Part shown: one piece after another, positions 7,354 through 51,309 of the stretch
How the letters are laid out: each line of letters starts with the position of its first letter
Numbering within the stretch: position 1 is the first letter of the stretch
Source of the DNA: Alphaproteobacteria bacterium
Lineage (GTDB): Bacteria; Pseudomonadota; Alphaproteobacteria; Micropepsales; Micropepsaceae
NCBI GenBank assembly: GCA_947473475.1
Contig: CANJBZ010000005.1
Coordinates: 62,001 to 126,000, forward strand
Direction of reading: 5' to 3'
DNA: 64,000 nucleotides
Made by a program: the position numbers and the translations under genes
Notes under the pieces: model-generated
Seen by the model: the letters and a program-made list of their open reading frames with translations, nothing else
Database searches by the model: none
What the model was told of the DNA's origin: nothing

Positions 7354-8139
7354 ATGCTGAAGCGGAGCATTATCGCGGCGGGAGCCTTGCACCTTGCGGT
7401 GATCGCGATTGCCACGGTGTCGTGGCCGCACGCTGTTGCTTTGTCCGACGAACAAGAATCCCCGGTGGTGCCCGTGGATTTGGTGACGGTCGCCGAAGAA
7501 ACAAACATCACACCGGCGCAAACCGAACAGAAGGCGCCGGAGCCGGAACCGCAGGCTCCGCCGCCTTCTCAGGCTGAGGTCGCGCCCGCCGATCTCAACA
7601 AGGATAAGCCGAAGGAACTGCCCAAACAGGCTGAGGCTTCGCCCGCTCCTCGCACGCCCGCCGTCCCTCGCCAGAAGCCCCGGCCCGATCCGCAAGCCGC
7701 GTTCAATGTGGACACGGTGTTGGCGCTTTTGGACAAGCGCGCGCCTAAAGCGCCAGCTTCCACGCCCGCCGCCAAACCTGCCGAGCAGCCGATCAAGGGC
7801 CTGGGGGCGCAGAGCGCGATGACATTGGACCTGCAGGATGCGCTGCTGGCACAAATGCGCGAATGCTGGAATGTACCTGTCGGGGCGCCCAATCCGGAGC
7901 AACTCATCGTGCAGGTACGCGTTTTTCTCGCGCAAGACGGAAGCTTGGCGCAGCTGCCGCAGCTGGAGCCCGCGACGCGCTCGGCGGCGGCGTCCAACCA
8001 ATTTATGCGTACGGCGGCAGAGGCGGCATTGCGGGCTGTCAATGTGTGCGAACCCTACAAGCGCCTCCCGCGCGAGAGATATGAGACGTGGCGGGAGGTC
8101 GTTATGACATTCGATCCCAGCAAAATGGCTGGCCGGTAA
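7354..8139 (+). CDS. tolA: Cell envelope protein TolA
   Basis: A 261-residue TolA/TonB-like protein: one N-terminal TM helix ([15 protein letters not shown]), a long Pro/Glu/Ala-rich linker (about residues 45-130), and a C-terminal domain (about 155-261) with the conserved MRECWNVP followed by [13 protein letters not shown]. TolA spans the periplasm and contacts TolB/Pal. It is short for the family because it lacks a long Ala/Lys helical domain. This is usual in many alphaproteobacteria. It lies between tolR and tolB. Confidence 0.92.
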
Positions 8140-8156
8140 TATTCGGGACTAAACCT

Positions 8157-9509
8157 ATGGCTCGATCTTCAAAACGTGGTTTCCGTTTCGTCCTTCACCG
8201 GCTTCTGCTTGCCGCGCTTCTGGCTGTGACGGACCTCTCTGCCACTGTCGTCCCCGCCGAAGCCGCCCTTCAGGTGCGCGTCGATCAGGGCGTGACCGAG
8301 CCCATTCCGCTGGCGATTCCCGATTTTCTCGGAGGCGGGCAGGCCGGACGCGACATTGCCGGCGTCGTGCGGGCCGATCTCGAACGCTCAGGCCTTTTCC
8401 GCTCTCTTAATCCAACCTCGTTCATCGAAAAGATCAACGATATCAACACCCCGCCGCGCTTCGGGGATTGGCGCACGATTCAGGCGCAAGGCCTCGTCAC
8501 CGGGCAGGCCACGATGCAGCCCGACGGCCGCCTGCGCGTGGATTTCCGCCTTTGGGATATTTTCGGCGAGGCCCAAATGGTGGGCCTGCAATTCATGACC
8601 ACGCCGGAGAACTGGCGGCGGATCGCCCATCTCGTTTCCGACGCCATTTATGAGCGCATCACCGGGGAGAAGGGGTATTTCGATACCCGCATCGTGTTCG
8701 TCGCCGAATCGGGCCCGAAGCTGAACCGCCGCAAGCGCCTTGCCGTTATGGATCAGGACGGGGCCAATCCGGTGTTTCTGACCCAGGGCGACTATCTTGT
8801 GCTGACCCCGCGCTTCAATCCGACGGCGCAAATGATCGCCTACATGTCGTACATTCAGGCCCGCCCGCGCGTTTATCTGTTCGATCTGGAGACGGGGCGG
8901 CAGGAGGTTTTGGGCAATTTTCCCAATATGACGTTCTCGCCGCGATTTTCTCCGGACGGCAAAAGTGTGGTCATGGCGCTGGAGACCAACGGCAATTCCG
9001 ACATTTATCTGATGGATTTGGCGACCCGGACCTCAAAGCGGCTGACCAACGATCCGGGCATCGATACCGCGCCGTCCTTCTCTCCCGACGGAAAGCAGAT
9101 CACATTCGAGTCAAGCCGCAGCGGATCGCAGCAGATCTACGTCATGAATGCCGATGGGACGAATGCGCATCGAATCAGTTTCGGCGCGGGCAAGAACGGG
9201 ACGCCTGTGTGGAGCCCGCGCGGAGACCTCATTTCGTTCACAAAGATCACACCGGGCTATTTCGGTGTTGGGGTCATGCGGCCGGACGGTTCTGGAGAGC
9301 GGTTGTTGACGCATGGCTGGCAGGATGAAGGCCCCACATGGGCCCCGAACGGCCGGGTCCTCATGTTCACGCGGACGTTACAGTCAGGTGCGAACGGGGT
9401 CGGTGGCGGTTCGCAAATCTGGTCTATCGATATTACGGGACGCAACGAGAGACGCGTACTTTCGCCGGGAGATGCATCCGATCCGGCGTGGTCGCCCTTG
9501 ATACAGTGA
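8157..9509 (+). CDS. tolB: Tol-Pal periplasmic beta-propeller protein TolB
   Basis: A 450-residue periplasmic protein with a signal peptide ending near residue 36 (VPAEA). An N-terminal alpha/beta domain (to about 165) includes [25 protein letters not shown]. It is followed by a WD40-like propeller with repeated SPDGK / [22 protein letters not shown] and SPRGDLISF motifs. TolB binds Pal and the TolA C-terminus. The start is ATG 8157, 17 bases after tolA. An earlier in-frame ATG at 8088 lies inside tolA and would spoil the signal peptide. Confidence 0.96.
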
Positions 9510-38156: not shown

Positions 38157-39878
38157 ATGGTCATGAAGCGGTTTGCATCGGCGGCGAAGGGTTTCTGGGG
38201 CGCTTGCGCTATGGCGGCCCTGCTGGCTCCCTGCGCACCCGCAGGCGCTGCCACGGCTGCCCATCGCATGATTGTCGCCGCGGAGCCCGACGCGGCCCAG
38301 GCGGGGCTGGATATGCTTCGCGCGGGCGGCTCCGCCGTGGATGCGGCTATAGCGGCCCAAATGGTGCTTACCCTTGAGGAGCCGCAGTCCTCTGGAATCG
38401 GCGGGGGCGCCTACCTGATCGTCTCGGACGGGGCTGAGCTTCGCGCCTATGACGGCCGCGAGACAGCACCGGCTTCCGCCAAGCCCACCATGTTTCTGGA
38501 CAAGGACGGCAAGCCGCGCCGCCACTTCGATGCCGTTCCGGGCGGGCTGTCGGTCGGGGTGCCCGGCGCGGTCCGCGTGCTCGCCATGGCGCATGCGGCG
38601 CACGGCAAGCTGCCATGGGCGAAATTGTTCGAGCCGGCCATTAGGCTTGCCGAACAGGGATTCAAAGTCCCACCCAGGCTAGCCATCGAACTTGCCGAAG
38701 GCGGCCCCCGCCTGGCGGCAATGCCCGACATACGCGCCAATTTCCTTCATCCCGACGGCACGCCCATCAAGCCGGGAGAGATGTGGCGCAATGAAAAGCT
38801 TGGCCGCAGTTTTCGCCAAATCGCGCAGGGCGGGCCGGACGCCTTTTATTCCGGCGTCATAGCCGACGACATTGTGAACGCGGTCGCGATGGCGCCGGTC
38901 AATCCCGCCGTGATGACGCGGGCGGACCTCGCCGGCTATCAAGCCAAGGAACGCGCCCCGCTGTGCGGCGACTACCGCCGCTATCGCGTCTGTTCGGTGC
39001 CCCCTTCTACATCGGGCGGCGCGACGGTCCTGCAAATTCTCGGGCTCCTCCAGCGCTTCCCGTCGTCCGACCTGCAACCACGGACGCTAACCGCGCTCCA
39101 CTTGATTTCAGAAGCGGAACGCCTCGCCTATGCCGATCGCGCACAATGGCTCGGCGACCCCGATTTTGTCCCCGTGCCGCTCGCTGGACTTATGGACCGC
39201 GCGTACCTGGATTCCCGCTCCCGCCTTATCGACCCGATGCGTGCGATGGGAACCGCGCCGGCCGGCGTGCCCTTGCTGCAAAAGACGGAGCTGCCCGTCT
39301 ATGCGCCGATGCGGCCACAGATCGAACAGGGCACCAGCCACCTTGCTGTGGTGGATGACCGAGGCGAAGCCGTCTCGATGACGACCTCCGTGGAAGCGGC
39401 TTTTGGCGCTCAGATTGCCGCGGGCGGCTTTCTGCTGAACAATCAGCTTACGGACTTTTCGTATGAGCCCATCATCGACGGCAAGCCCGTCGCCAACGCG
39501 CCTGCACCGGGAAAGCGGCCACTTAGCGCCATGTCGCCTACGATCGTTTTCGACCCCGACGGAAAGTTCTTCGCAGCGGTCGGTTCGCCCGGCGGGCGGC
39601 AAATCATCGGCTATGTAGCGCAAGCCATCGTCAATTTGATCGACGCGAAATTGTCCATGCCCGAAGTCGCGGCGGCCCCGCGCCATATCAATTTGAACGG
39701 CGCCACGCTGATCGAGCGCGGCATGCAGCTGGAAACGCTGACGCCCGCTTTGACCGCGATGGGACATCAGGTGCGGCCCGTAAAATTCGATTCGGGGGTG
39801 AACGGCATTCGCCGTGTCAGCGGCGGATATGAGGGCGGCGCCGATCCACGGCGCGAGGGCGTGGCGCTTGGCGATTGA
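38157..39878 (+). CDS. ggt: Gamma-glutamyltransferase
   Basis: A 573-residue N-terminal nucleophile hydrolase, exported by a signal peptide (about 1-32, ending AGA). It cleaves and transfers the gamma-glutamyl group of glutathione and similar peptides in the periplasm. The self-processing site is T393 in GTSHLAVVD. The large subunit carries GGSAVDAAIAAQ and SSGIGGGAYLIV; the small subunit carries NNQLTDFS and the PLSAMSPTIVF and GSPGGRQII oxyanion loops. Length is normal. It stands 58 bases before the TPR/OGT gene and could act on the same pathway, but no link is shown. Confidence 0.94.
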   Translation: MVMKRFASAAKGFWGACAMAALLAPCAPAGAATAAHRMIVAAEPDAAQAGLDMLRAGGSAVDAAIAAQMVLTLEEPQSSGIGGGAYLIVSDGAELRAYDGRETAPASAKPTMFLDKDGKPRRHFDAVPGGLSVGVPGAVRVLAMAHAAHGKLPWAKLFEPAIRLAEQGFKVPPRLAIELAEGGPRLAAMPDIRANFLHPDGTPIKPGEMWRNEKLGRSFRQIAQGGPDAFYSGVIADDIVNAVAMAPVNPAVMTRADLAGYQAKERAPLCGDYRRYRVCSVPPSTSGGATVLQILGLLQRFPSSDLQPRTLTALHLISEAERLAYADRAQWLGDPDFVPVPLAGLMDRAYLDSRSRLIDPMRAMGTAPAGVPLLQKTELPVYAPMRPQIEQGTSHLAVVDDRGEAVSMTTSVEAAFGAQIAAGGFLLNNQLTDFSYEPIIDGKPVANAPAPGKRPLSAMSPTIVFDPDGKFFAAVGSPGGRQIIGYVAQAIVNLIDAKLSMPEVAAAPRHINLNGATLIERGMQLETLTPALTAMGHQVRPVKFDSGVNGIRRVSGGYEGGADPRREGVALGD

Positions 39879-39936: not shown

Positions 39937-42900
39937 ATGAACGACAGCGTCTTCCAAGCGGCAGCGCGCGCCCATCGCTCGGGCAATTTTGCCGAAGCGG
40001 CCCGGCTCTACGGGGAAGTTCTGCGCGCCAATCCGCGTCACTTTCCGGCGTTGTTTGGGCTCGGCTATCTCTATTTTCAAAGCGGGCATTTCGCGGAAGC
40101 CGAGCGCCTGACCGCGGAAGCATTGCGTCTCAATCCGGCATCGCCTGAAGCGTACTTTACCCGCGGCTCGGCGCTGATGCGCCTGGACCGGGCGGCGGAG
40201 GCGCTGGCCTGCTTCGACGCAGCGCTCGCCCACAAGCCGGATTTTGTCGAAGGGCAGCTGAGCCGGGCCACAGCGCTGACGGCGCTGGGACGCTTCGACG
40301 CCGCGCTCGAGAGCGTTGACTTGGTTCTCATGCTCAATCCAAAGAATGCATCGGCCCTAAACAATCGTGGCCGCATCCTGCAAGCCATTGGCCGGACAGA
40401 CGATGCGATCTCCGCCTTCACCAAGGCGGCCGCGGCTGAACCGCGTTTTACCGACGCGCTGATCAATCGCGCGGCGTTGCATGCGAGCCGGAAACAGTTT
40501 TCGGAAGCGGCCGCCGACGCGGCCAAGGCGCTCGCTATAGATCCAGAGCTTGCATACACGCGGGGCCATTTGTGCCTGTATCGCCTAAGCGTTTGCGATT
40601 GGCGCCAATGGGATCAGGACACGCTTGCGATTTCTTCCGGCCTCGCCGCGGCAAAGCGCGTTTGCGACCCGTTCATCAATCTCCTGATCTCGTCGTCTCC
40701 GGCAGAACAGCTCCAATGCGCGCGCATTTGGACGGCCTATGAAGCCCCTGCGGCCGCCGCTCCCTTATGGCGCGGCGGCCGGTACCGGCATGAAAAAATT
40801 CGCGTGGCCTATGTGTCGGGGGACCTCCATTCGCATGCGGTCGCAGCACTCATCGCCAACGTCATTGAGACGCATGACCGGCAGCGATTTGAAATCATCG
40901 CCATCTCGTTCGGGCCGGACGACAAAAGCACCATGCGCGCGCGTCTCGTTTCGGCCTTTGACCGCTTCATCGATGTGCGTGGCCGCACCGATGCCGAGAT
41001 AGCGCAGATCATGCGCCAGATGGAAATCGACATTGCCGTCGATCTGAAGGGCTACACGCAAGACAAGCGCCCGCGCATTTTTGCCTTCCGCCCGGCGCCG
41101 ATCCAAGTGAATTATCTGGGTTATCCCGGCACGATGGCGGCGCCCTATATGGACTACCTCATCGCCGACCGCGTGGTTATTCCAGAGGAACAGCGTTCCT
41201 TTTACAGCGAGCGGATCGCCTTTCTTCCCGACACGTACCAGTGCAACGATTCCAAGCGCGTGCTTACCGTCGAGCCGCCTTCGCGCAAAGACGCCGGACT
41301 GCCTGAAAGCGGCTTTGTATTTTGCTGCTTCAACAACAATTTCAAGATCACGCCGCCGATCTTCGCGATCTGGATGCGGCTGCTGCACAACGTTGAGGGC
41401 AGCGTTCTTTGGCTGCTCGAAGACAGTGCAGAGGCCATCGCAAATCTCAAACGGGAAGCAGAGGCCGCAGGCGTCGACGCCGATCGCATCATCGCCGCGC
41501 CACGTGTCAATGCCGCTCAGTATCTGGCCCGGCAACGTCTGGCGGATCTGTTCCTCGACACGCAACCCTATGGCGCGCACACCACCGCAAGCGACGCGCT
41601 CTGGATGGGGCTTCCGGTTTTGACGACTCTCGGGCCGGTCTTTGCATCGCGCGTTGCCGCAAGTCTGCTCTCGGCACTGAACGTGCCAGAATTGATCACG
41701 CACTCCTTGGACGAATACGAAAACGCCGCCTTGCAGTATGCGCGCGCGCCAGACCGGCTCGCTGCCGTGAAAGCAAAGCTTGCCGCGAACCGCGATACGG
41801 CGCCGTTGTTCGATACCGCCCGCTACACGCGAAATCTGGAAGCCGCTTTCGCCACCATGTGGGAACGATGGCAGAGGGGCGAGCCGCCCGCCGACTTCGT
41901 AGCGAATACAGCGCCACCGCGTCAGCCTGCCAGCGTCCCGCAAAGCGCGGCGACGGCCTATATGCGCGCGTGCTCGCTGGCGCAGGCAAACCAGATCGAA
42001 CAGGCCCTTGCCGAATTCGACCGGGCCATCGAAATTGCGCCGCACTTTGTCGAAGCCTTATGCAACCGCGGCGCAATCTTGCTGGCGTTGAAGCGGCACG
42101 CAGAAGCTTTGCAAAGCTTCGATGCGGCGCTTGGCATCAATCCCTCTTTGTTTGAAGGCTGGAACAATCGCGGCAACGCGTTATCGGAGCTGGGACGCTT
42201 TGAAGAGGCCATCGCCTGTTACGACCGCGCGCTCACGCTTCGCCCGCAAACCTTTCAAGTCCTGCTGAACAGGGGGAATGCGCTGATCGGAGCACAGCGC
42301 GCGGCCGATGCGCTCGCCAGCTACGAGCAAGCGTTGGCGATTGAACCCGGCAATGCGGGAGCGCTCAAGGGCCGCGCCAACGCGCTGTTCGAACTGAGCC
42401 GCTTCGAAGAAGCGATTGGCGGCTTTGAGGCCGTGATTGCTCGCGAGCCGTTCCATCCCTACGCGTTCGGAGATCTCGCTTTTTCAAAACTGCAATGCTG
42501 CGACTGGCGAAACCTTGACGAGGAACGTGCGCGTATCGTTGCGAGCGTGCGGAACCATGCGCCGGTCATCAACCCTTTCGAGTTTCTGGCGCTGTCCAAT
42601 AGTCCGGAGGAACAACAAGCCTGCGCGGGCATTTGGATTACAGAAAAATTTCCTCCCGCCGCTGCACCCTTGTGGCGCGGCGAAACCTACCGGCACGACA
42701 AAATTCGCATCGCGTACGCGTCCGCCAATTTCCACAACCACGCGGTGGGCCAGGCTCTTGCCAGTGTTCTGGAACGGCACGACCGCACGCGTTTTGAGAT
42801 TACGGCGATTTCCTGGGGCCCCGATGACAAAAGCGCATTGCGGGGCCGCCTTGAACGCGCCTGCGATCGATTTGTGGATGTCAGCCGTCACACCGATGCG

Positions 42901-43797
42901 GATGCCGCGCGGCTTATGCGGCAGATGGAAATCGACATTGCCGTCGATCTGATGGGTTTCACGGCCGACCACCGCACCGCAATCTTTGCCGCGCGTCCCG
43001 CGCCGGTTCAGGTGAACTATCTCGGATTCGCCGGCACCATGGCGGCACCCTATATGGATTACATTGTTGCCGACGATATCGTTATTCCGAATCCCGACCG
43101 ATCCCGCTACAGCGAGAAGGTGATCGCACTGCCGGGCAGTTATTTGCCTATCGACGATAGCCGGATCGCGGAAAATAGCATCGACCGCGCGATGGCCGGT
43201 CTGCCGGACAATGCTTTCGTCTTTGCCTGTTTCAACAACAGCTACAAAATCTCGCCGGACGTTTTCGCGATCTGGATGAATCTCTTGCGCCAGACGAATG
43301 GCAGCGTCCTGTGGCTATCGCGCGCGAATGCGGCAGCGGCGCGAAATCTGGCGCGGGAGGCGCAAGCCCGCGGCGTTGATCCTTCGCGCCTGATCTTTGC
43401 GCCGCTTGTCGCCAGCCCATCGGATCATCTCGCGCGGCTGGCTTGCGCCGATCTGTTCCTCGACACGCTGCCCTACAATGCGCACGCGACGGCGGTCGAT
43501 GCACTGCTGGCGGGACTGCCCCTGATTACATGCAAAGGGCGCAGCTTTGCAGGCCGGGTCGGAGCAAGCCTGCTGCACGCCGCCGGCCTACCGGAACTGG
43601 TAACGGATTCGCTGGCCTCATATCAGGCGCTTGCGCTGGAGCTTGCCAACAACCCGCGCACACTCAACGACCTGAAAGCGAAGCTCGCCGCCAACCGGCA
43701 AACGCAGCCCTTGTTCGATACCGCCCACTACACGCGGCAGCTCGAACAAGCCTTCGTCGATATGCTGGAGCGTTCGGGCCGGCGCGCTATTTCCTAA
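39937..43797 (+). CDS. Tandem TPR/O-GlcNAc-transferase-like protein (two complete units)
   Basis: A 1286-residue cytosolic protein made of two repeats of TPR array plus SPINDLY/OGT (GT41) catalytic domain. Unit 1: TPRs about 1-215, catalytic part 283-648. Unit 2: TPRs about 675-865, catalytic part 915-1280. Both keep the GT41 landmarks: HSHAVA/HNHAVG near the base His, K470 in FNNNFKI and K1104 in FNNSYKI, and the UDP-loop HTTASDALWMGLP/HATAVDALLAGLP followed by SRVAASLL/GRVGASLL. Single-unit homologues are about 600-700 residues. It probably glycosylates protein Ser/Thr. It converges with a methyltransferase gene, the two overlapping by 11 bases. Confidence 0.92.
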   Translation: MNDSVFQAAARAHRSGNFAEAARLYGEVLRANPRHFPALFGLGYLYFQSGHFAEAERLTAEALRLNPASPEAYFTRGSALMRLDRAAEALACFDAALAHKPDFVEGQLSRATALTALGRFDAALESVDLVLMLNPKNASALNNRGRILQAIGRTDDAISAFTKAAAAEPRFTDALINRAALHASRKQFSEAAADAAKALAIDPELAYTRGHLCLYRLSVCDWRQWDQDTLAISSGLAAAKRVCDPFINLLISSSPAEQLQCARIWTAYEAPAAAAPLWRGGRYRHEKIRVAYVSGDLHSHAVAALIANVIETHDRQRFEIIAISFGPDDKSTMRARLVSAFDRFIDVRGRTDAEIAQIMRQMEIDIAVDLKGYTQDKRPRIFAFRPAPIQVNYLGYPGTMAAPYMDYLIADRVVIPEEQRSFYSERIAFLPDTYQCNDSKRVLTVEPPSRKDAGLPESGFVFCCFNNNFKITPPIFAIWMRLLHNVEGSVLWLLEDSAEAIANLKREAEAAGVDADRIIAAPRVNAAQYLARQRLADLFLDTQPYGAHTTASDALWMGLPVLTTLGPVFASRVAASLLSALNVPELITHSLDEYENAALQYARAPDRLAAVKAKLAANRDTAPLFDTARYTRNLEAAFATMWERWQRGEPPADFVANTAPPRQPASVPQSAATAYMRACSLAQANQIEQALAEFDRAIEIAPHFVEALCNRGAILLALKRHAEALQSFDAALGINPSLFEGWNNRGNALSELGRFEEAIACYDRALTLRPQTFQVLLNRGNALIGAQRAADALASYEQALAIEPGNAGALKGRANALFELSRFEEAIGGFEAVIAREPFHPYAFGDLAFSKLQCCDWRNLDEERARIVASVRNHAPVINPFEFLALSNSPEEQQACAGIWITEKFPPAAAPLWRGETYRHDKIRIAYASANFHNHAVGQALASVLERHDRTRFEITAISWGPDDKSALRGRLERACDRFVDVSRHTDADAARLMRQMEIDIAVDLMGFTADHRTAIFAARPAPVQVNYLGFAGTMAAPYMDYIVADDIVIPNPDRSRYSEKVIALPGSYLPIDDSRIAENSIDRAMAGLPDNAFVFACFNNSYKISPDVFAIWMNLLRQTNGSVLWLSRANAAAARNLAREAQARGVDPSRLIFAPLVASPSDHLARLACADLFLDTLPYNAHATAVDALLAGLPLITCKGRSFAGRVGASLLHAAGLPELVTDSLASYQALALELANNPRTLNDLKAKLAANRQTQPLFDTAHYTRQLEQAFVDMLERSGRRAIS

Positions 43798-44941
43798 GCA
43801 CCGCGAAAAGACCGGTCACCACCGCACCGTATTCCATGCGCAGGAACGCTTCTTCCAGATTCGCGACGTGAAGTCCCGCAGCAGCAGCGGCGTCGCGAAC
43901 GTGATCGGGATGGTGCTCGTAGCGGCCCGTATCGGTGATGCGGAAGGGATAGGTCTGACCGCGTTCCATCGAGAAGACAAAATGCCCGCCGGGCACCAGC
44001 CGGCTCTTTGCCAACGCGACAAGCTCATGCAGATCGCCGAAATAGATAATCACGTCGCAGGACACGATCATCTCAAAGGGCTCGGCGCTCGCCTTGAGCC
44101 ATTGCGTGATCTCGCCGACTTCCAGCCGGTCGTAGATTTCGCGCTTCCTGGCGATCTCCAGCATTTCCGGGGAGAGATCGACGCCGGTCAATTCGCGAGC
44201 CCACGGTTTAAGCGTGATCCCGGAAAGACCGGAGCCGCAACCGAGATCGAGAATCTTCAGGTTTGACGGCTCGGGCATGACCGCGTGAACGGCATCGGCA
44301 ATGCGTTCGGGACCCTTATATTCGAGGTCCTCACGCATGCGCGTTTCATAGTTCCAGGCGAAGTCCTTGTAGATCTGCTGGATGGTGCGATCGGACGCGC
44401 GCGCGGGCGGCGCCTCGTCACGCAATGCAATCAACAGATGCTCGATTTCCGCATCCTCGGGGTGGGTATCGAAATATTTCTGATAGGCCTCGCGAGCCTC
44501 CTCACGGCGGCCAACCGACTGACACAGATCGCCCAGATCGTACCAGGCGTCCCAATCCGCCGGATTGAGTTCGACGGCCCTTTTTGTGCAGAGATAAGCC
44601 GGCTGCACATTTCCATATTCTTTGAGGCGTTTGGCGAGAGCGTAAAGTTCCGCGCCCGTAAATTCGCGATGCGCGCCAAGCGCAGCATCGCTGGAGACGA
44701 GAAGACCGGATTTCGCGCCTTCGTCGAACCAGCGTTTGACGGCGTCCACGCCATCGGGCGGCAGCAGCGGCCGCACCAGATTTTCGACGTCTTCCACGCT
44801 GCGGTCGCCATCGCTCAGTTCCGCAAGCAATGCCGCCATGGGATTGAGCTGATGCAGTTTGTCGGAAGCGGGATCGTAGGCAACGTATCCATTCTCGACA
44901 GGCGACAGGAGAATGGCAGGGTGGATTTTCGGATTGGCCAT
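43787..44941 (-). CDS. PqqD-like/TPR/SAM-methyltransferase fusion
   Basis: A 384-residue protein. Residues about 5-85 (PAILLSPVENGYVAYDP, LHQLNPMAALLAELSDG, then a winged helix ending SGLLV) look like a PqqD-type RiPP recognition element. Residues about 100-175 are TPRs (AVELNPADWDAWYDLGDL, GRREEAREAYQKYF). The rest is a class I methyltransferase of the TPR-methyltransferase group (COG4976-like): ILDLGCGSGLSG, TGVDLSPEMLEIA, SCDVIIYFGDL. ATG 44941 is preferred over TTG 44959. The gene follows the 64-residue peptide gene on the same strand. A recognition domain beside a small peptide gene suggests the peptide is its substrate (inference). Confidence 0.88.
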   Translation of the reverse strand: MANPKIHPAILLSPVENGYVAYDPASDKLHQLNPMAALLAELSDGDRSVEDVENLVRPLLPPDGVDAVKRWFDEGAKSGLLVSSDAALGAHREFTGAELYALAKRLKEYGNVQPAYLCTKRAVELNPADWDAWYDLGDLCQSVGRREEAREAYQKYFDTHPEDAEIEHLLIALRDEAPPARASDRTIQQIYKDFAWNYETRMREDLEYKGPERIADAVHAVMPEPSNLKILDLGCGSGLSGITLKPWARELTGVDLSPEMLEIARKREIYDRLEVGEITQWLKASAEPFEMIVSCDVIIYFGDLHELVALAKSRLVPGGHFVFSMERGQTYPFRITDTGRYEHHPDHVRDAAAAAGLHVANLEEAFLRMEYGAVVTGLFAVLRK

Positions 44942-44974
44942 CGATGAGCTTCTGGGCAAACGTCAGAAAGTAAG

Positions 44975-45016
44975 AGACGACCGTGCATCCCCTTGGGAAT
45001 ACACGGCCGTCTTTTT
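44975..45016. terminator. 18-base-pair hairpin between peptide and methyltransferase genes
   Basis: AGACGACCGTGCATCCCC (44975-44992) pairs with GGGAATACACGGCCGTCT (44995-45012), with three G-U wobbles in the minus-strand RNA. TTTTT follows on the plus strand. On the minus strand, along which both genes are read, it is not followed by a T tract. It may cap the peptide mRNA or give partial termination, so that peptide exceeds enzyme. Confidence 0.75.
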
Positions 45017-45047
45017 ACGCAATTCAAAAGAAAAAGACGTCAGACGA

Positions 45048-45242
45048 TCACTCGCCTTCTTTCTTCTTTTTCTTCTTCTTCTTGCCTTCTTCGCCTTCGC
45101 CTTCCTGAGCAACGGCCTGCGTGGTCATCGCCGGGATCGCCGCAACGGCAGAGCCGACCAGCATCGTGCGGAGGAAACCGCGACGGTCCTGCTGGACATT
45201 GGCAAGGGCATTGTCGAGCGACTTCAAGATGTCATTAGCCAT
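45048..45242 (-). CDS. Small Tat-signal peptide with Lys8 tail, candidate modified-peptide precursor
   Basis: A 64-residue protein with a very strong AAGGAGG site. Residues 1-18 form an amphipathic helix (MANDILKSLDNALANVQQ). DRRGFLR at 19-25 is a twin-arginine motif. A hydrophobic stretch ends AVAQ at 43-46. The remaining 18 residues are EGEGEEG, eight Lys and EGE. I know no family with an assigned function. If exported by Tat and cleaved after AQ, only this charged tail would remain. Its neighbour downstream carries a PqqD-like domain, so it may be a ribosomally made, modified peptide. Alternatives are a metal- or DNA-binding periplasmic peptide. Confidence 0.75.
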   Translation of the reverse strand: MANDILKSLDNALANVQQDRRGFLRTMLVGSAVAAIPAMTTQAVAQEGEGEEGKKKKKKKKEGE

Positions 45243-45298
45243 TAATGGCCTCCTTGGTTGAGACCTTGAATATGCCCAGATCGCGAGCGGCGTCCCCG

Positions 45299-46971: not shown

Positions 46972-48453
46972 TCAGACGCCCTTGCGGTCCGGCACGGTCA
47001 GTTTGAACCGCGTTCCGGCTGCGCTGGAAGCAACCAGCGCGAGTTCGCCGCCATGGGCTTGAATCAGCTCACGCGAAATGGCGAGGCCGAGGCCGGAACC
47101 GCCGCTTCGCGTTGTGCCCGAGAACGGAAGAAACAGCCGCTCACGCACATTCGCGGGAATACCTGGGCCGTTGTCGGCAATCTCGATGACAACCGTGTCG
47201 AACTTGCGCCACGCCTCCACAAGAATACCCTTCTTGCTCTTCCCATCCGCAGGCATCGCTTCAAGCGCCTGCCGCGCGTTGCTGAGCAGATTAAGCAGCA
47301 CGCGAAAGAGCTGCTCGGAATCGGCGTCGATTTCCAGCTCTTGCGGAATGCGCTTCTCCAGCGCGATTTCTCCTTCCTCGGGAAGCGCCGATGATGCGAC
47401 TTCGTCCATCAAGGGTCCCAGCAGAAGCCGCATGCGTTGCGGCTTGCGCTCCTCGGCGCGGCCATAACGAAGCGTGTTGGTTGCGAGATTGATGGCGCGA
47501 TCCAAAGCAGCCACCAATCGCGGCGCCACGCGCCTAACGACGGGATCGTGGCTTGCGACGAGACGGTCCGATGCGATCTGGGCGCTGGACAGAATGTTGC
47601 GCAGGTCGTGCTGTATCTTTGCGACCGCAAGACCCAACGTGGCGAGCCGCGTCTTCTGCTGCAGGAAGCCATAAAGCTCGTGCTGCAGCGTCGACAATTC
47701 CCGTTCGGCCGTGCCGATTTCATCACGCCGCGTCGAGGGCGTGAGAATACGCGCCGGGTCTTCGGGATTGTTGCGAAAGTTGATCATGGCGGCGGTGATG
47801 CGCTGCATCGGCCGCACCAGGATCAGATACAGACTGACGAAAACCAGAAGCGACGTCAGCGCCGAAACAAAAATGGAAAGCGCCAGGACACGCGTCGAGA
47901 ACACAAACAGCGCGGCGCGAATGGGTTCTTCATTAGCGACCACAACGATGCTGGCGCCCTGACCGATACCGGTCTGGGCGGTGATGCTGATCGTGCGGCG
48001 CGGCGCGGCGAACATTGCGCCGATCACATCCTCAATTTGTTCGATCAGGTCGGTTTCGCCGCCATCATATTCGGCCTGGATGTCCGGCGGCTGAGGCCCC
48101 ACTAGAAACAGTTCGTGCTGGCCCCCACCACGCAAAATCACCGCTTCGACACCCGCGCGATCGAGCAGCTGCTTGCGCAAGTTTGCCGACAATTGTTGTC
48201 CCGGCGCCTCTGTGAACGGGAGGATGACGAGCTGCGCCGAGTTGATCCGGTCTTGCAGCAACTGATGATGGTAGCGGGCGACCGAAGGAAAATAGATCAG
48301 CGCCACGCTCAGCATGACGAACAGAATGGTCAGCAGAAGGAGCCGGCCGGACAGGCTGTACATCGCCAGCCGCCACCCCGTTCTGGGCCTTTCCAGTTCC
48401 TTCAACATTCCGTCAGGTAACACCAGATTCCGGGCAAAATCATGCCGCTTCAT
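46972..48453 (-). CDS. Orphan sensor histidine kinase
   Basis: A 493-residue membrane kinase. TM helices at about 36-55 and 185-212 flank a periplasmic sensor of about 130 residues. A HAMP linker (LVRPMQRITAAMINF) is followed by the H-box KIQHDLRNILSS with H282 (an HDLRN-type box, as in NtrB-like kinases), the N-box LLSNARQAL, and G-boxes DNGPGIPANVRERLFLPF and GSGLGLAISREL. No response regulator gene is adjacent. A good start is M1 or M16; I keep the longer form. The signal sensed is unknown. Confidence 0.9.
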   Translation of the reverse strand: MKRHDFARNLVLPDGMLKELERPRTGWRLAMYSLSGRLLLLTILFVMLSVALIYFPSVARYHHQLLQDRINSAQLVILPFTEAPGQQLSANLRKQLLDRAGVEAVILRGGGQHELFLVGPQPPDIQAEYDGGETDLIEQIEDVIGAMFAAPRRTISITAQTGIGQGASIVVVANEEPIRAALFVFSTRVLALSIFVSALTSLLVFVSLYLILVRPMQRITAAMINFRNNPEDPARILTPSTRRDEIGTAERELSTLQHELYGFLQQKTRLATLGLAVAKIQHDLRNILSSAQIASDRLVASHDPVVRRVAPRLVAALDRAINLATNTLRYGRAEERKPQRMRLLLGPLMDEVASSALPEEGEIALEKRIPQELEIDADSEQLFRVLLNLLSNARQALEAMPADGKSKKGILVEAWRKFDTVVIEIADNGPGIPANVRERLFLPFSGTTRSGGSGLGLAISRELIQAHGGELALVASSAAGTRFKLTVPDRKGV

Positions 48454-48676
48454 AAAAATATGGTGCCTCAGCGGGCCGGAGCCATCCCCGCCCTCCGGCG
48501 TTGGGGAGGGGGTGTCCGGGCCGGACGAATATCCGCCAGAAGTAGGACAAATGACCGATAGGGCGGCACCTCGCGCATTTTTGCACAGCGAGGCCCGAGC
48601 CTCACGCTCCCGTGATTACCGCAAAGCCCCCCGAGTTGCGGTAAAAAAGCACGCACACATTTTACGGGGAACACCC

Positions 48677-49912
48677 ATGTCCAGAACCGCGCTCCTCGGC
48701 GCTGTCGCCTGCCTCGGCCTGATCCTGCCCGCTTTGGCGCAAAATGCCGCCGACCCTGATCTGAACAAGCTTCCTCAAGGGCCGGAGCGGGAGATCATGC
48801 AGCGCGCCTGCACCGTCTGCCACACGCTGGAGCGCGTGGTGACGGCCGACCATGACGCCCAGGAATGGAACCATGTCGTCGATGGGATGACAAACGTCGG
48901 CGCCCCGGTTACGCCGGAAGAGAAAGCACAACTGAAGAAATTCCTGGCCAAAATCCCGGCGCATAAAGAGCCGGTGCTGAAGATGGTTTCCGGCCCGGCG
49001 AAGGTTGAGGTCAAGGAATGGGACCTGCCGACCGCCGGCACGCGCCCGCACGACCCGCTGGCCATGACGGACGGCACGATGTGGTACACCGGTCATCGCA
49101 GCAGCCTCCTCGGCCATCTCGACCCGAAGACCGGCAAAATCACGGAATACAAGACCAAGACGCCGATCTCGGGCCCGCACGGCCTGGCCGCCGATAAAGA
49201 CGGCAACGTCTGGTACACGGGTAATTTCAAAGGCTACATCGGCAAACTCGACGTCAAAACCGGCCAGTTCACCGAATATAAGATGCCGGACCCCAAGGCG
49301 CGCGACCCGCACACGCCGATGTTCGACAAGCAAGGCCGCCTCTGGTTCACCGTGCAGGGCTCCAACATGGTCGGCCGGCTCGACCCGAAGACGAGTGAAA
49401 TCAAGCTCGTCACCGTGAAGACGCCGAAGGCGCTGCCTTACGGCACGGTCTTCGACACCAAGGGGACGCTCTGGATCGACCTGTTCGGCACGAACAAGCT
49501 CGCCAGCCTCGACGAGAACATGAACATTACCGAGTATCCATTGCCGGAAGGGGCGCGTCCGCGCCGTATCGCGATCGATGCCAATGACGTCATCTGGTAC
49601 ACGGATTTCGACTGCGGCTATCTCGGGAAATTCGACACCAAGACCGGCAAGCTGGTGAAGGAGTATCTTTCGCCCAGCGGCGCGAAGTCTGAGCCCTATG
49701 GCATCACCGTCATCGACGGGATCGTCTGGTATTCGGAAAGCCATTCCCATCCGAATGGGCTGGTACGCTTCGATCCGAAAGCCGAAAGCTTCCAGACCTT
49801 TGTGATCCCCAATGGCGGCGTGGTGCGCAACATGATGCCCACAGCTGACAAGAAGGGCATCGTCATGGCCGAGAGCGGAGAGAACAAAGTCGCGATTGCT
49901 TACATTCAGTAA
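48677..49912 (+). CDS. Secreted cytochrome c / Vgb-like beta-propeller protein, copy 1
   Basis: A 411-residue periplasmic protein. The signal peptide ends near residue 22 (LPALAQ). A small haem domain with C45-x-x-C48-H49 (ACTVCH) covers about 25-95. The rest (about 110-411) is a propeller of virginiamycin-B-lyase type, with repeated NVWYTGNFKGYIGKLD, DPKTGK and IDANDVIWYTD units. Vgb lyase opens a streptogramin ring, but fusion to a cytochrome suggests a redox or binding role instead. A near-identical-length paralogue follows. The upstream 223 bases hold the divergent kinase promoter and no gene. Confidence 0.88.
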   Translation: MSRTALLGAVACLGLILPALAQNAADPDLNKLPQGPEREIMQRACTVCHTLERVVTADHDAQEWNHVVDGMTNVGAPVTPEEKAQLKKFLAKIPAHKEPVLKMVSGPAKVEVKEWDLPTAGTRPHDPLAMTDGTMWYTGHRSSLLGHLDPKTGKITEYKTKTPISGPHGLAADKDGNVWYTGNFKGYIGKLDVKTGQFTEYKMPDPKARDPHTPMFDKQGRLWFTVQGSNMVGRLDPKTSEIKLVTVKTPKALPYGTVFDTKGTLWIDLFGTNKLASLDENMNITEYPLPEGARPRRIAIDANDVIWYTDFDCGYLGKFDTKTGKLVKEYLSPSGAKSEPYGITVIDGIVWYSESHSHPNGLVRFDPKAESFQTFVIPNGGVVRNMMPTADKKGIVMAESGENKVAIAYIQ

Positions 49913-50073: not shown

Positions 50074-51309
50074 ATGACGAAATTGATATTCGCTGCCGCC
50101 ATTGCGGCCGCCGCCGTGCTGCCCGCCGCGGCACAGACCAACGATCCTGACGTCGGCAAGCTTCCGGCAGGCCCGATGAAGGCCGTTGTCGAGCAGAACT
50201 GCACGACGTGCCATGAACTGGGCCGCATCGTGTACGGCAACTACAACGCCGCTGAATGGGCCAACAATGTTCACATGATGATGAATGCGGGCGCCTCTCT
50301 CACGCCCGACCAAGTGCAGCCCATGATCGATTATCTGGTCAAAAGTTTCCCGGAAAAGCCCGGCAACCCGTTCAAGGCTGTTGCCGGCCCGGTGAAGGTC
50401 AGCATCAAGGAATGGGAACTGCCGGTTCCGGGTTCGCGTCCGCACGATCCGCTGGCCGCGCCCGATGGCACCATGTTCTACACCGCCCACATGGGCAGCT
50501 ATATCGGCCATCTCGACCCGAAGACCGGCAAGTTCGACGTCTTCAAGACCAAGACCCCCATTTCCGGCCCCCATGGCCTGACCATGGATAAGGAAGGGAA
50601 CGTTTGGTACACGGGCAACTTCAAAGGTTATATCGGCAAGCTGAACCCGAAGACCGGCCAGTTCACCGAATATAAGACCGGCGCTGCCCGCGACCCGCAC
50701 ACCCCGCTTTTCGACAAGAACGGCATCCTCTGGTTCACCAGCCAGAACAGCAACATGGTGGGCCGTCTCGATCCGAAGACCGGCGACGTGAAGCTGGCCG
50801 TTGTTCCGACCGAAAAGGCGGCCCCCTACGGCATGGTGTTCGATTCCAAGGGCAAGCTCTGGTTCAGCGAATGGCAGAAGCCGAAGCTGGCCTGGATCGA
50901 CGAAAAAACCATGGAAATCCATGAAGTTAACCTGCCGAACACCGCCACGCGCCCGCGCCGCATCGCCATCGACGCCAACGACGTGATCTGGATTTCGGAT
51001 TACTCGCGCGGCTATCTGGGCATGTACGACACCAAGAACGGCGCGACCAAGGAATGGGCCTCGCCGGGCGGTCCGAAGTCCCAGCCCTATGGCATCACCA
51101 CGCTGAACGGCATCGTCTGGTACGACGAAGGCAACACCAAGCCGAACGGCCTTGTCCGCTTCGATCCCAAATCCGAGAAGTTCCAGACCTTCCCGGTCCT
51201 GCCTTCCGGCGGCGGCGTCGTGCGCAACATGATGCCCACGGCCGACGGTAAAGGCCTTGTTATGGCGGAAAGCGGCGTCAACCACGTCGCCATCGCCACC
51301 ATTCAGTAA
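50074..51309 (+). CDS. Secreted cytochrome c / Vgb-like beta-propeller protein, copy 2
   Basis: A 411-residue paralogue of the preceding gene with the same architecture. Signal peptide to about 20 (LPAAAQ), haem site C43-T-T-C46-H47, and a Vgb-like propeller with GPHGLTMDKEGNVWYTGNF, PRRIAIDANDVIWISD and the shared end GGGVVRNMMPTADGKG. Both copies end VAIAxIQ. The strong similarity and adjacency show tandem duplication. Divergence lies mostly in the cytochrome domain and single propeller loops. The role is unknown. Confidence 0.88.
   Translation: MTKLIFAAAIAAAAVLPAAAQTNDPDVGKLPAGPMKAVVEQNCTTCHELGRIVYGNYNAAEWANNVHMMMNAGASLTPDQVQPMIDYLVKSFPEKPGNPFKAVAGPVKVSIKEWELPVPGSRPHDPLAAPDGTMFYTAHMGSYIGHLDPKTGKFDVFKTKTPISGPHGLTMDKEGNVWYTGNFKGYIGKLNPKTGQFTEYKTGAARDPHTPLFDKNGILWFTSQNSNMVGRLDPKTGDVKLAVVPTEKAAPYGMVFDSKGKLWFSEWQKPKLAWIDEKTMEIHEVNLPNTATRPRRIAIDANDVIWISDYSRGYLGMYDTKNGATKEWASPGGPKSQPYGITTLNGIVWYDEGNTKPNGLVRFDPKSEKFQTFPVLPSGGGVVRNMMPTADGKGLVMAESGVNHVAIATIQ

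Follow-up and report, generated by a model that had tools for sequence, protein, structure and literature searches.

An RRE-TPR-methyltransferase paired with lysine-rich Tat-signal peptides: a candidate RRE-guided peptide-modification module in three bacterial phyla

The two genes and their products

In the window, the whole 64,000-nucleotide stretch of DNA that was analysed, a short gene for a Tat-signal peptide is followed on the same strand by the gene for a methyltransferase with a PqqD-like RiPP recognition element (RRE). The features of the pair are as follows, with the evidence in brackets.

45249..45255, minus strand: Shine-Dalgarno sequence AAGGAGG of the peptide gene (sequence)
45048..45242, minus strand: peptide gene, precursor-like, 64 aa, MANDILKSLDNALANVQQDRRGFLRTMLVGSAVAAIPAMTTQAVAQEGEGEEGKKKKKKKKEGE (ORF with Shine-Dalgarno sequence; 15 homologues at RRE-methyltransferase loci)
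45108..45242, minus strand: leader, conserved L..[VI]...RRgF pre-region and Tat signal, up to A-x-A (16-leader alignment, three phyla)
45051..45107, minus strand: core QEGEGEEG-K8-EGE, species-variable, lysine-rich throughout (lysine counts of 16 cores)
44975..45012, minus strand: strong 17-bp hairpin, attenuator- or processing-like, between the two genes (RNA folding)
43787..44941, minus strand: RRE-TPR-methyltransferase, 384 aa (sequence, Pfam, homologue starts, one clade with support 100/99)
44687..44941, minus strand: predicted RRE (PqqD-like) domain, residues 1-85 (model pLDDT 88.5; best matches TbiB1 and TfuB1)
44417..44656, minus strand: TPR region, residues about 96-175 (TPR_14 34 bits, and others)
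43790..44389, minus strand: class I SAM methyltransferase domain, residues about 185-384 (Methyltransf_23/25/11/12 over cut-off; motifs)

An earlier note, made from the letters of this DNA, had described a 64-residue peptide with a Tat motif and a Lys8 tail preceding a methyltransferase on the same strand, and the open reading frames, the Shine-Dalgarno sequence and the Pfam domains bear this out. The peptide ORF runs from an ATG at 45242 to a stop codon at 45048, with the AAGGAGG sequence 6 nt upstream. Its product contains the Tat motif DRRGFLR, and the A-x-A at residues 43-45 is the putative cleavage site. The methyltransferase begins 106 bp downstream, at the ATG at 44941; a TTG at 44959 is a possible earlier start, but the homologues begin at the ATG. 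The intergenic RNA folds with -38.9 kcal/mol (z -4.6 against shuffled sequence). Strong hairpins separate the two genes at 9 of the 13 adjacent loci (z -3.5 to -6.5), and folding is weaker at L085, L077, L080 and L082 (z -1.05 to -2.2). In L054, L062 and L084, a U run follows the hairpin. Bacteriocin-type operons commonly have an attenuator between the precursor gene and the gene for its modification enzyme. The hairpin at the present loci may keep the substrate peptide in excess over the enzyme.

The likeness of the methyltransferase N-terminus to PqqD, also pointed out in the earlier note, holds at the levels of sequence and predicted structure. On its own, the window protein stays below the cut-off of the Pfam PqqD model (PF05402; 18.3 versus 23.4 bits, residues 19-52), and the model matches all 14 full-length homologues that were scanned (best E 3.4e-8). 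An initial model built on two sequences had low confidence (pLDDT 57), and the fold claims rest on a later model of residues 1-92, which has a pLDDT of 88.5 and predicts a winged fold of three strands and three helices (bbb-aaa), as in PqqD and the RREs. The fold check that the earlier note had proposed has thus come out in favour of its assignment. In a Foldseek comparison with the PDB (top 3.8e-4), the model fits the leader-bound structures of TfuB1 and TbiB1 best, and then PbtF, LynD and TruD. A second aligner gives Z scores of 11.3 for TbiB1 (5V1V) and 10.5 for TfuB1 (6JX3), 7.9 and 6.1 for PqqD itself (5SXY and 3G2B), and 9.6, 8.5 and 7.2 for the C-terminal domains of the lysine methyltransferases Rv2067c, PKMT2 and PKMT1. 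TfuB1 is also the top match when the PDB sequences are searched with the RRE profile, though at an E value of no better than 0.026. As a model-based prediction, the PqqD/RRE fold of the enzyme's N-terminus is therefore solid. The TPR matches of the enzyme span residues of about 96-172. In the methyltransferase domain, the Pfam matches over cut-off cover residues of about 210-325, and the motifs IYFGDL and D.GR[YF].H are invariant.

The peptides share a leader and differ in their cores. In the leader alignment, which spans three phyla, an invariant leucine and a conserved valine or isoleucine precede the RR-x-F motif, which is followed by a hydrophobic stretch and usually by A-x-A. The Tat signal model TIGR01409 matches 13 of the 16 peptides; the window peptide is below its cut-off (13.9 versus 16.7). 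TatC is encoded in 15 of the 17 genomes, including that of the window. The exceptions are G002, a fragmented assembly of 86% completeness, and G121, for which completeness is not stated. Tat function partly accounts for the conservation of the leader.

All 16 cores are rich in lysine (7-22 residues) and devoid of histidine, and every core has acidic residues in variable number (2-11). The lysines form runs of eight or nine in the window and in G002 and of six in L060, GGK repeats in L085, and GK repeats in most cores. Cysteine is absent from 11 of the 16 cores, and the other five have one or two, with a two-Cys form in G083 and G094. In one planctomycete group (L062, L077, L083, L084), a single EF hand sits within the core, between Gly-Lys repeats (Pfam EF-hand, 2e-6). 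A lanmodulin model weakly matches two peptides of the set (E 0.016), and metal binding is thus possible for the EF-hand cores. Whole-peptide dN/dS ratios for four pairs of sequences are 0.034, 0.069, 0.155 and 0.52. In the first three pairs, the core alone has a dN of 0.012-0.036 against a dS of 0.42-1.4. Selection thus maintains the core lysines in these pairs, and low-complexity DNA does not account for them.

Occurrence, descent and neighbours of the pair

Among 96 genomes of the window's order, the five in which the RRE domain was found are also the five with the peptide, and the two adjoin on one strand (hypergeometric P 1.6e-8, uncorrected for kinship). A weak sixth RRE match, in G005 (E 4.5e-5), has an internal stop codon and lies in a separate small ORF. 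A first contig scan with the single window protein as the query gave no matches. When the RRE profile was run against 84,980 species genomes, two more loci came from outside this group, and class-wide samples added further loci in Planctomycetota and Acidobacteriota. Two class-wide matches, L087 and L088 (E about 1e-6), were excluded from the family as low-scoring and devoid of such a peptide. The plasmids that were searched gave no match. In 385 sampled genomes of other Alphaproteobacteria and 398 of other Pseudomonadota, only weak PqqD-like matches were found, a soft absence with about 13 candidates scored per genome. Class-wide scoring covered only some twelve candidates in each genome, so the occurrence frequencies are lower bounds, and because the RRE profile was used to find the homologues, those whose RRE has diverged escape notice. 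The taxonomy of the loci is that of database records and genome-collection groups, and the related loci are mostly contigs of metagenome-assembled genomes. At several planctomycete loci, the flanks encode DUF1559-like prepilins and DUF1501-like proteins (recognised by eye). These flanking genes agree with the phylum assignment, which makes contamination an improbable explanation for the whole set of planctomycete loci.

The RRE-methyltransferase is accompanied by the peptide at 16 of 17 loci from Alphaproteobacteria, Acidobacteriota and Planctomycetota; that its homologues normally adjoin such a gene agrees with what the earlier note had expected of the neighbourhoods. At 15 of the 17, the peptide gene is on the same strand within 1.5 kb, in L083 downstream of the enzyme gene, and in L060 the distance is 4.7 kb. 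Such a peptide is missing from 28 loci in the window's class whose TPR-methyltransferase lacks the RRE. The comparison of 15/17 with 0/28 gives a Fisher P of 4e-10, but the loci are not independent, and the P values for the pairing therefore overstate the case. The acidobacterial L060 has a short tandem-like repeat coding stretch just 5' of the RRE-methyltransferase, at 7805-7999 (in another frame: ...HNATEDPSYTADNATGR...). The remaining locus, L081, has the enzyme but not the Tat peptide. Beside this enzyme, at 7653-8411, a Sec-type, Gly/Pro-rich EF-hand protein is encoded, which could be a replacement substrate, since some of the Tat cores also have EF hands.

In a tree of the TPR-methyltransferase part, all 16 RRE forms fall into one clade (support 100/99), within which Alphaproteobacteria, Acidobacteriota and Planctomycetota are interleaved, a pattern suggestive of horizontal transfer of the pair. 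The simplest reading of these sequences is that the RRE fusion arose once, that the pair spread horizontally, and that the peptide was lost or replaced in L081. In the window's own genome (G000), at least three more TPR-methyltransferase matches lack the RRE region, and two of these lie close together on one contig; such matches include C20:53036-54838 and C15:3467-4312.

The RRE-methyltransferase and the peptide are the only genes found to recur widely when unrelated neighbourhoods are compared. Sequence similarity links four loci through a histidine-kinase-like ORF; a gamma-glutamyltransferase links three, and the position of neither is fixed. The window has a gamma-glutamyltransferase gene at 38157-39878, not far from the pair, and a double TPR-GT41 (OGT-like) protein of 1286 aa is encoded tail-to-tail with the methyltransferase (39937-43797). 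The hint in the earlier note that these two make further modifications is not supported. The OGT was rejected as a part of the system, as it is found only in two congeners, with a GT41-like gene at the same position in the second (L055:4354-5376). The gamma-glutamyltransferase was rejected with 3 of 17 loci, two of them from near relatives. Its gene adjoins the pair in the related planctomycete loci L078 (4440-6128) and L079 (8466-10202). Its place beside the pair is probably due to chance, although it may be an occasional partner. On the other side of the pair, at 48314-49912 and 50074-51309, two tandem genes each encode a CxxCH heme motif and then, judged by eye, a Vgb-type-like propeller.

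Chance or operon-level co-location of the enzyme with an ordinary small Tat protein, without a functional link, appears very improbable. One candidate for such a protein is the formate dehydrogenase region TAT target (TIGR02811), which is likewise a small Tat peptide of similar size, and the TIGR02811 model weakly matches 10 of the 16 peptides. However, the window peptide scores 24.5 bits, far under the curated cut-off of 48.45 bits, and the pair has no further widely recurring neighbour, so the identity was rejected. The pairing itself is kept over three phyla and in interleaved lineages.

A proposed function and its alternatives

We propose that the pair is a two-gene, RRE-guided peptide-modification module, in which the enzyme would N-methylate the core lysines before Tat export, and we put the probability of this reading at roughly 0.55. 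The RRE would capture the leader, by its pre-RR motif, its signal region or both, and thereby hold back export, while the TPR stretch would help to position the peptide chain and the methyltransferase would N-methylate the lysines of the core. The peptide would then be exported by Tat, and signal peptidase would cut off the leader. The product would be a polycationic peptide that carries methyl groups and resides in the periplasm or on the cell surface; most directly, its role would be that of a methylated envelope polycation. The bufferins offer a precedent for the idea that binding hides the export signal as long as modification goes on: their signal peptide apparently contributes to recognition by the RRE partner complex (PMC12452194). 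RREs are, on the other hand, regarded as vestigial in certain pathways (PMC7470986). Other points against the proposal are the share of Tat function in leader conservation, the enzyme without the peptide in L081, the 4.7-kb distance in L060 and the origin of most related loci from metagenome-assembled contigs.

The choice of lysine as the likely target comes from core composition and from analogy with lysine methyltransferases: it is the only reactive side chain that is abundant in every core, which favours it over glutamate as well, and RRE-like folds occur on known lysine methyltransferases. An RRE-guided system with another chemistry, such as methyl-esterification of Glu or Asp, methylation of the alpha-N-terminus or backbone, or transfer of another SAM-derived group, seems rather unlikely. 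Such a system would fit the acidic residues of every core, which flank the lysine run in the window, and a methyltransferase domain whose generic class I fold matches many unrelated methyltransferases. Nevertheless, acids are few and scattered in the (GK)n and GGK cores, where lysine abounds (12 lysines and two acids in L085), and the known class I methyltransferases with RRE-like folds include lysine methyltransferases.

These same enzymes suggest another reading, to which we give a similarly low probability: the RRE-like domain could be a structural winged helix as in the PKMTs and Rv2067c, the enzyme could methylate another envelope protein, and the peptide could merely be a co-inherited exported partner or effector. 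Lysine methyltransferases with RRE-like winged domains do act on large proteins (PMC11784438), and the L081 enzyme adjoins an EF-hand protein in place of the Tat peptide. Yet the domain of the present enzymes is N-terminal and nearer to the leader-binding RREs, its top matches, than to the PKMT domains, and the peptide is the sole protein that recurs widely beside the enzyme.

At the gene level, the pair looks like a RiPP system, with a short precursor gene beside a modification enzyme, a conserved leader and a variable core. We speak of a candidate class because we infer both the modification and the binding. The wider claim, a new RiPP-like class of RRE-guided lysine (poly)methylation of Tat-exported polylysine or Gly-Lys-repeat peptides, with the Tat signal as the RRE leader and horizontal distribution over at least three phyla, is tentative, at slightly under even odds.

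Relation to known systems

No description of a system that joins an RRE, a methyltransferase and a Tat-exported lysine-rich peptide was found in the open papers searched; supplements of RRE mining papers may hold an unnamed entry. A structure-based RRE survey of 2025 reports RREs fused to many unstudied domains, and its supplementary tables possibly include unnamed members (PMC12710340). If our proposal is correct, it adds a methyltransferase-only, RRE-guided modification system with a Tat-signal leader, would explain highly specific methylation of a lysine stretch on one exported bacterial peptide, and links RiPP logic to protein-lysine methylation. With only two genes, the pair lends itself to direct tests in which it is co-expressed and the peptide mass is measured, and the (GK)n, K8 and EF-hand cores supply a natural series of substrates.

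The discrete lasso-peptide RREs TbiB1 and TfuB1 resemble the present system in the winged fold and in an adjacent short peptide with a conserved leader and a variable core. In contrast to them, the RRE is here fused to a TPR-methyltransferase, the leader is a Tat signal, and no further modification gene recurs. In bufferins and related MNIO RiPPs, the leader is an export signal, and a DUF2063-RRE partner is proposed to recognise it and to delay export (PMC12452194). The present precursors share the export-signal leader and the RRE-bearing partner. However, bufferins have a Sec signal, an MNIO oxidase and cysteine cores, whereas the present system has a Tat signal and a methyltransferase. Identity with bufferins was rejected in view of the mostly Cys-free cores and the lack of a recurring third enzyme, which for an MNIO (DUF692) gene was judged from gene recurrence across the neighbourhoods.

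Protein lysines are methylated by the outer-membrane protein lysine methyltransferases, the rickettsial PKMT1 and PKMT2 and Acinetobacter KmtA, and by Rv2067c (PMC11784438, PMC10739865). These enzymes likewise combine a class I methyltransferase with an RRE-like wing fold, but their wing is C-terminal and their substrates are large proteins, whereas the present enzymes have an N-terminal wing, TPRs and, as the putative substrate, a small paired peptide. Identity with the PKMTs was rejected on domain order, which is RRE, TPR, methyltransferase here and N-terminal methyltransferase, middle domain, C-terminal wing there. Related enzymes are also the TPR-repeat methyltransferases, which we take to be COG4976-like and which are widespread in Alphaproteobacteria. 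They share the TPRs and the methyltransferase family, most of them with the motif Y-x-GDL, but have neither the RRE nor the peptide, and the RRE forms stand out among them as a distinct clade.
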